Below, one piece after another: positions 47,791 through 48,030 of a stretch of 64,000 nucleotides of DNA. Numbering within the stretch: position 1 is the first letter of the stretch; each line of letters starts with the position of its first letter. The DNA is from Firmicutes bacterium HGW-Firmicutes-8 (GTDB lineage: Bacteria; Bacillota; Thermincolia; Thermincolales; UBA2595). The DNA is taken from assembly GCA_002840165.1 (NCBI GenBank), contig PGZN01000004.1, forward strand, positions 1 to 64,000. Reading direction: 5' to 3'. Under the pieces are notes generated by a model. It did not search any database. It was not told the DNA's origin and saw nothing but the letters and a program-made list of their open reading frames with translations. Made by a program: the position numbers and the translations under genes.

Positions 47791-47819
47791 TTGACATTTG
47801 TTTTATAGTGAGGTATCAT
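47791..47819 (+). promoter_or_regulatory. nifH promoter (sigma70 type)
   Basis: TTGACA at 47791-47796 and TATCAT at 47814-47819 are spaced 17. No -24/-12 motif is present, so nif expression here does not appear to use sigma54/NifA. The start of transcription is near 47827, upstream of two attenuators. Confidence 0.8.
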
Positions 47820-47840
47820 TTCAACTATAAATTAAACACC

Positions 47841-47899
47841 GATACGCAGCTGTATCAATCAAGCACAGAAGCTTTCCGATGACCGGAAAGCGTTTTTTA
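47841..47899 (+). promoter_or_regulatory. nifH leader, first ANTAR unit
   Basis: P1 is GATAC-GCAGCT-GTATC (G4 kept, position 1 is G). P2 is AAGC-ACAGAA-GCTT (A1 and G4). The 3' arm of P2 begins the terminator GCTTTCCG/CGGAAAGC, followed by GTTTTTTATTT. Confidence 0.8.
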
Positions 47900-47919
47900 T
47901 TTACATTGTTGTTTTATTC

Positions 47920-48000
47920 GTACCAAGGTGTACATACGGGCACAGGGGCCTTTTGGCAGAGTGGATTACTTTCCTTCTGCCGAAAGGCCCTTTTTATTTA
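47920..48000 (+). promoter_or_regulatory. nifH leader, second ANTAR unit
   Basis: P1 is GTAC-CAAGGT-GTAC (G4 kept). P2 is GGGC-ACAGGG-GCCT (A1, G4). It overlaps a second terminator (GGGCCTTTTGGCAGA with TCTGCCGAAAGGCCC, then TTTTTATTT). Two attenuators in series precede nifH. Confidence 0.75.
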
Positions 48001-48030
48001 TCCAAAATAAAAACTTAGGAGGTTGAAATC

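Follow-up and report, generated by a model that had tools for sequence, protein, structure and literature searches.

The window analysed here, that is, the whole stretch of 64,000 nucleotides from Firmicutes bacterium HGW-Firmicutes-8 (contig PGZN01000004.1, positions 1-64,000; GCA_002840165.1), raises the question of what two apparent transcription attenuators, one behind the other, are doing in front of nifH. We consider it probable, with a likelihood of roughly 0.72, that the nifH leader consists of two ANTAR-responsive attenuators in series, which would be released by a REC-ANTAR antiterminator.

The leader comprises 240 bases (47791-48030) between nifH, the product of which shows 90% identity to NifH of Desulforamulus putei, and a divergent AIM24-type gene (Table 1). 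The promoter consists of TTGACA at 47791-47796, a 17-nt spacer and TATCAT at 47814-47819. No other promoter-like site occurs in 47660-48040, although comparable sites are common in shuffled sequences too. The promoter is followed by unit 1 (P1, P2 and terminator), unit 2 (P1, P2 and terminator) and nifH, in this order. An earlier note on this DNA had proposed a single sigma70-type promoter and then two hairpin-plus-terminator units before nifH, an arrangement that both the sequence and the predicted structure confirm.

Table 1. Features of the nifH leader, the other candidate ANTAR units and the REC-ANTAR genes (window coordinates)
Feature	Position	Strand	Remarks
AIM24-type gene	47165-47668	-	divergent neighbour of the nifH leader
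Promoter, sigma-A/sigma-70 type, TTGACA-17-TATCAT	47791-47819	+	11/12 consensus matches
Unit 1 P1 hairpin, GATAC-GCAGCT-GTATC	47841-47856	+	loop GCAGCT; 34.8 bits together with P2
Unit 1 P2 hairpin, AAGC-ACAGAA-GCTT	47861-47874	+	loop ACAGAA; 3' strand common to terminator
Unit 1 intrinsic terminator and U-tract	47871-47902	+	hairpin GCTTTCCG..CGGAAAGC 47871-47891, then GTTTTTTATTT
Unit 2 P1 hairpin, GTAC-CAAGGT-GTAC	47920-47933	+	loop CAAGGT; 29.4 bits together with P2
Unit 2 P2 hairpin, GGGC-ACAGGG-GCCT	47938-47951	+	loop ACAGGG; 3' strand common to terminator
Unit 2 intrinsic terminator and U-tract	47947-47999	+	hairpin 47947-47989, then CTTTTTATTT
nifH, first gene of the controlled operon	48031-48849	+	ribosome-binding site AGGAGG 48017-48022
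Single ANTAR unit before asnB	46947-46980	-	35.1 bits
Serial ANTAR pair before amtB1, first unit	60070-60100	+	second P2 at 60175-60188
Serial ANTAR pair before amtB2, first unit	62196-62227	+	second P2 at 62302-62315
P2-type hexaloop overlapping terminator before gdhA	38017-38032	+	without clear P1
REC-ANTAR protein, clade B	42226-42846	+	phosphate-accepting Asp of receiver replaced by Ala
REC-ANTAR protein, clade C	35934-36539	+	Asp replaced by Asn; overlaps glnA gene

Both nifH units are built of adjacent hairpins with six-base loops and 4-nt linkers, and all four loops carry G at position 4. The 3' strands of the P2 hairpins (47871-47874 and 47948-47951) are at the same time part of the 5' arms of the terminators, so that P2 and the terminator are mutually exclusive in each unit. 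The terminator hairpins are predicted at -11.2 and -30.3 kcal/mol for units 1 and 2, respectively, values that none of 1000 shuffles reached, whereas P1 and P2 by themselves form only weak structures (-7.1 and -7.4 kcal/mol); therefore, the unaided RNA should terminate. The stops predicted earlier near 47895 and 47995 coincide with the two U-tracts. Among 10,000 dinucleotide shuffles of the leader, a single complete unit of P1, P2 and terminator appeared in 10, and two units in none. As judged from sequence, both units are ANTAR-target antiterminators, with dual G4-hexaloop hairpins overlapping a terminator. They share this anatomy with the targets of EutV, AmiR and NasR (PMC3369931) and, taken singly, belong to an established type of RNA element.

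The 2012 search model for such elements required A at position 1 and G at position 4 in both loops (Ramesh et al., PMC3369931). A structure-only scan of the fetched regions, in which no loop base was required, yielded 104 units compared to 0 in shuffled sequences, with G4 in 100 of the 104 P1 loops and 103 of the 104 P2 loops, a figure somewhat favoured by the choice of many of these regions with a G4-bearing model; most of the regions hold further units besides those for which they were picked. A1 is treated here as a frequent but non-defining feature because it is found in only 94 of 131 P1 loops (72%) and 95 of 131 P2 loops (73%). In the nifH units, both P2 loops start with A, and the P1 loops with G and C. 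Thus, the earlier statement that the P1 loops retain G4 without A1 is accurate, and the contrast that it drew with P2 is true of these four loops without holding in general. These observations agree with the EutV crystal structure, in which G4 stacks on Tyr164 and A1 makes no specific contact (PMC8934654). However, changes of A1 in either P1 or P2 weakened EutV binding (PMC3369931), and given this, the missing A1 in the nifH P1 loops counts against an ANTAR-attenuator reading. The loop survey loosens the published A1/G4 rule, which would miss units like the nifH pair.

A purine stands at position 5 in 126 of 131 P2 loops, and P1 loops accept any base there, a possible mark, at the sequence level, that separates P2 from P1. 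The stems covary across 134 distinct units, with 123 double-sided changes compared to 42.8 in shuffled alignments, the real alignment being fitted to the model. In both nifH units, and in most of their relatives, the P1 loop permits a base pair between its positions 1 and 5 (pseudotriloop); Watson-Crick combinations number 42 against 32 expected (unadjusted p = 0.0075, with 20 position pairs tested), and 1 of 500 column shuffles was as extreme, but we do not claim this pair, given the modest excess, the frequent occurrence of G1-A5 loops and the relatedness of the sequences. Loss of A1 as a mark of second units was likewise rejected, the frequency of A1 showing no clear difference between single (74%), first (72%) and later (67%) units.

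The candidate regulators are encoded nearby. The genome encodes exactly three ANTAR-domain proteins, all of REC-ANTAR architecture and all on the contig of the window. The third of these, which is missing from Table 1 (C104:66461, adjoining glnA), retains the phosphate-accepting Asp. The three clades recur across the order, with mostly Asp at this site in clade A, Asn in clade C, and Ala, Ser or Glu in clade B; for the one REC-ANTAR protein examined, the closest solved structures are Rv1626 and EutV. The REC-ANTAR gene that shares an operon with glnA (C104:65957-66643, equivalent to L095:3957-4643) is preceded by its own ANTAR unit, as are its orthologues, in all ten genomes of the order examined; by the evidence of sequence, this is conserved autoregulation of the glnA-linked regulator gene. 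Because it keeps the Asp and has this conserved upstream unit, the C104:66461 protein is probably the principal regulator, acting also on its own expression. By analogy with AmiR, the activity of the two pseudo-receiver proteins may be under the control of a partner protein. One of their two genes (35934-36539) overlaps a glnA gene by 4 bases, a hint that glutamine synthetase may exert some control.

The genome-wide distribution of units was assessed by searching the 2.66 Mb genome with a covariance model of P1 and P2 built from 26 units, some of them from the window itself. All seven matches with E < 0.001 lie at 46.9-66.0 kb of the contig that carries the ANTAR genes, upstream of asnB, nifH (two matches), three amtB genes and the ANTAR-glnA operon. 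Five other members of the order that contributed no training units (G004-G008) likewise have matches in nitrogen-gene clusters, and across the phylum 38 of 399 sampled genomes have matches. Several further elements were observed in this genome. The second ANTAR-like unit of amtB2 (62302-62360) combines P1 GTAAA-ACGGTA-TTTAC and P2 GAGC-AGTGGC-GCTC with a hairpin of -27 kcal/mol and a poor U-tract; the true start of amtB2 is probably the ATG at 62411 and not the TTG at 62248. A strong P1 hairpin, TGTAGAAC-AACGGG-GTTCTATA, together with a P2-type hexaloop precedes a type III glutamine synthetase gene at C104:68106 (L095:6112), which is probably another member of the regulon.

The series itself is conserved in relatives. 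In G002, G003 and G009, a unit 1 with a GATAC-type P1 is followed by a unit 2 with a GTAC-type P1, in the same order, and by an additional P2-terminator unit; this difference between the P1 stems is consistent in G000, G002, G003 and G009. G001 retains both terminators and both P2 hairpins, with a decayed P1 stem in unit 2. A TTGACA-17-TATAnT promoter is found upstream of unit 1 in G001 and G009 and, by eye, in G002; the G003 contig begins too late to reveal the -35 element. Two observations had been named beforehand as able to overturn serial attenuation: a promoter between the units, and conservation of only one of the terminators in close relatives. A consensus rule detects no such promoter in five related leaders, and both units with their terminators recur, in order, behind one promoter, which supports the claim of serial attenuation before nifH.

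A different conserved element lies within the last 340 bases before nifH in seven loci, mostly from Negativicutes (L010, L011, L013, L016, L017, L018 and L042): a AAGGAGGTG-like start and a long hairpin, followed by GGGTTTATTTGACnTACCC and TTTCATTATA. Six of the seven loci were compared with Rfam, and none matched. A AAGGAGGTG-type motif is also located between the last terminator and nifH in L085, L086, L087 and L089, and is absent from the window; approximately 45 bases 3' of it, GACGCCG is present in L085, L086 and L087 and was not seen in L089. Together, the two motifs could represent a short leader peptide or some other control element.

To compare gene classes, units at most 260 bases apart on one strand were counted as serial. 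Clusters of at least two units number 48 in the real sequences and 0 in shuffled ones. In regions drawn with the covariance model plus the window, 11 of 13 leaders are serial for nifH, 15 of 31 for amtB and 4 of 65 for the group of glnA, ANTAR, asnB and gdhA genes; relative to the last group, Fisher's test gives p = 1e-8 for nifH and p = 4e-6 for amtB, values that are not strict probabilities because the genomes are related and the leaders not fully independent. Some of the serial counts are underestimates: according to the model, nifH is preceded by three P1+P2 units in both L006 and L196, and the scan missed the second amtB2 unit of the window with its poor U-tract. The number of units varies from 1 to 4 between species, with four P2-terminator units before nifH in a Dethiobacter locus (L021). 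Doubled or tripled stops are the rule for nitrogenase genes and rare for most other nitrogen genes, with amtB being intermediate. The earlier suggestion that serial attenuation suits the costliest operon therefore holds for the link with nifH but not as a feature unique to that operon, because amtB leaders are often doubled as well. A recognisable P1 is present in 32 of 44 first units and 24 of 52 later ones (p = 0.012; background 15 of 244); since P1 is detected less often in later units, these may not be equivalent copies of the first.

Three other interpretations were weighed against serial ANTAR attenuation. The first of them, in which the hairpins would serve simply as terminators or as processing sites outside ANTAR control, would fit the Rfam results, with no match above the gathering score in the window and none for ten related leaders, but is highly improbable: there is no plus-strand gene upstream, the neighbour at 47165-47668 being divergent, the near-invariant G4 hexaloops overlap the terminators, and the units strictly co-cluster with ANTAR genes. 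It is also improbable, albeit to a lesser degree, that unit 2 represents a redundant copy or the remnant of a mobile terminator with little added effect. The drift in unit number between species and the weaker P1 of later units would be expected of such a remnant; however, several genomes keep both units, each with a sequence of its own, and the number of serial units strongly depends on gene class, and from this conservation and dependence we argue for selection on the series.

The units might, alternatively, be read by different ANTAR proteins from the three diverged clades, which would make the leader an AND gate for two signals. Although the recurrence of the clades across the order with different residues at the Asp site and the consistent difference between the P1 stems of units 1 and 2 are both compatible with such a gate, we regard it as unlikely: the same GATAC-type P1 occurs in single leaders across the regulon, no base was found that separates the targets of the clades, and loss of A1 is not specific to later units.

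Under serial ANTAR attenuation, with good nitrogen supply, transcripts from the single promoter would stop at terminator 1, and most of those that escape would stop at terminator 2. The regulators would be the nearby-encoded REC-ANTAR proteins, probably active under nitrogen limitation. Following the EutV model, an active protein would capture P1, the recruiting hairpin of each unit, move to P2 and block each terminator in turn, the ANTAR-held P2 hexaloop keeping the terminator from forming. With two stops in series, the antiterminator would have to succeed twice, so that leakage would be lower, in a manner that we infer to be multiplicative, and more active regulator would be needed; within the regulon, the nif and amt genes would be switched on last. 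If this is the case, it would explain how nitrogenase could be kept silent in many anaerobic nitrogen fixers despite a housekeeping-type promoter.

More tentatively, and with considerable doubt, one can envisage that several Firmicute families order the switch-on of nitrogen genes by the count of similar ANTAR stops per leader, one for glnA, asnB, gdhA and regulator genes, often two for amtB and two to four for nifH, so that graded thresholds arise from a single regulator. Stacking one RNA switch would then be a simple and portable way to obtain a hierarchy of expression thresholds, and the counting idea predicts that the number of units tracks the order and fold of induction.

Regulation of nitrogenase genes by ANTAR proteins is already known, as are regulons in which units outnumber transcripts (PMC3369931). 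For nitrogen genes, the 2012 work described ANTAR-target RNAs that include units of nitrogenase genes in Pelobacter carbinolicus and, in Desulfotomaculum acetoxidans, 13 units distributed over six transcripts; like the nifH units, these targets consist of dual hexaloop hairpins with P2 overlapping a terminator, are associated with nitrogen genes including nitrogenase, and occur several to a regulon. The parts of that report available to us contain no analysis of serial units within one leader or of their preference for nifH and amtB, and its supplementary tables may include nifH series; our search for literature on ANTAR and nif genes returned nothing beyond it. What appears to be new, as judged from the portions of the literature examined, is that series length depends on gene class. 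EutV/EutW of Enterococcus faecalis shares with the present system a REC-ANTAR protein, the logic of P1, P2 and terminator, and the presence of four terminator sites in one pathway (PMC3369931, PMC8934654); it differs in that the sites are spread through the eut locus, the signal is ethanolamine and the regulator is phosphorylated by EutW, whereas here two of the three receivers lack the Asp. AmiR of Pseudomonas and NasR/NasT also control nitrogen genes by ANTAR antitermination, and AmiR, too, has a pseudo-receiver, but each is described for a single locus (PMC3369931) and not for a multi-gene regulon with serial units. The mgtCBR leader, in the part of its description available to us, resembles the nifH leader in its tandem attenuators, but works via translated short ORFs and not via ANTAR proteins (PMC3641672).
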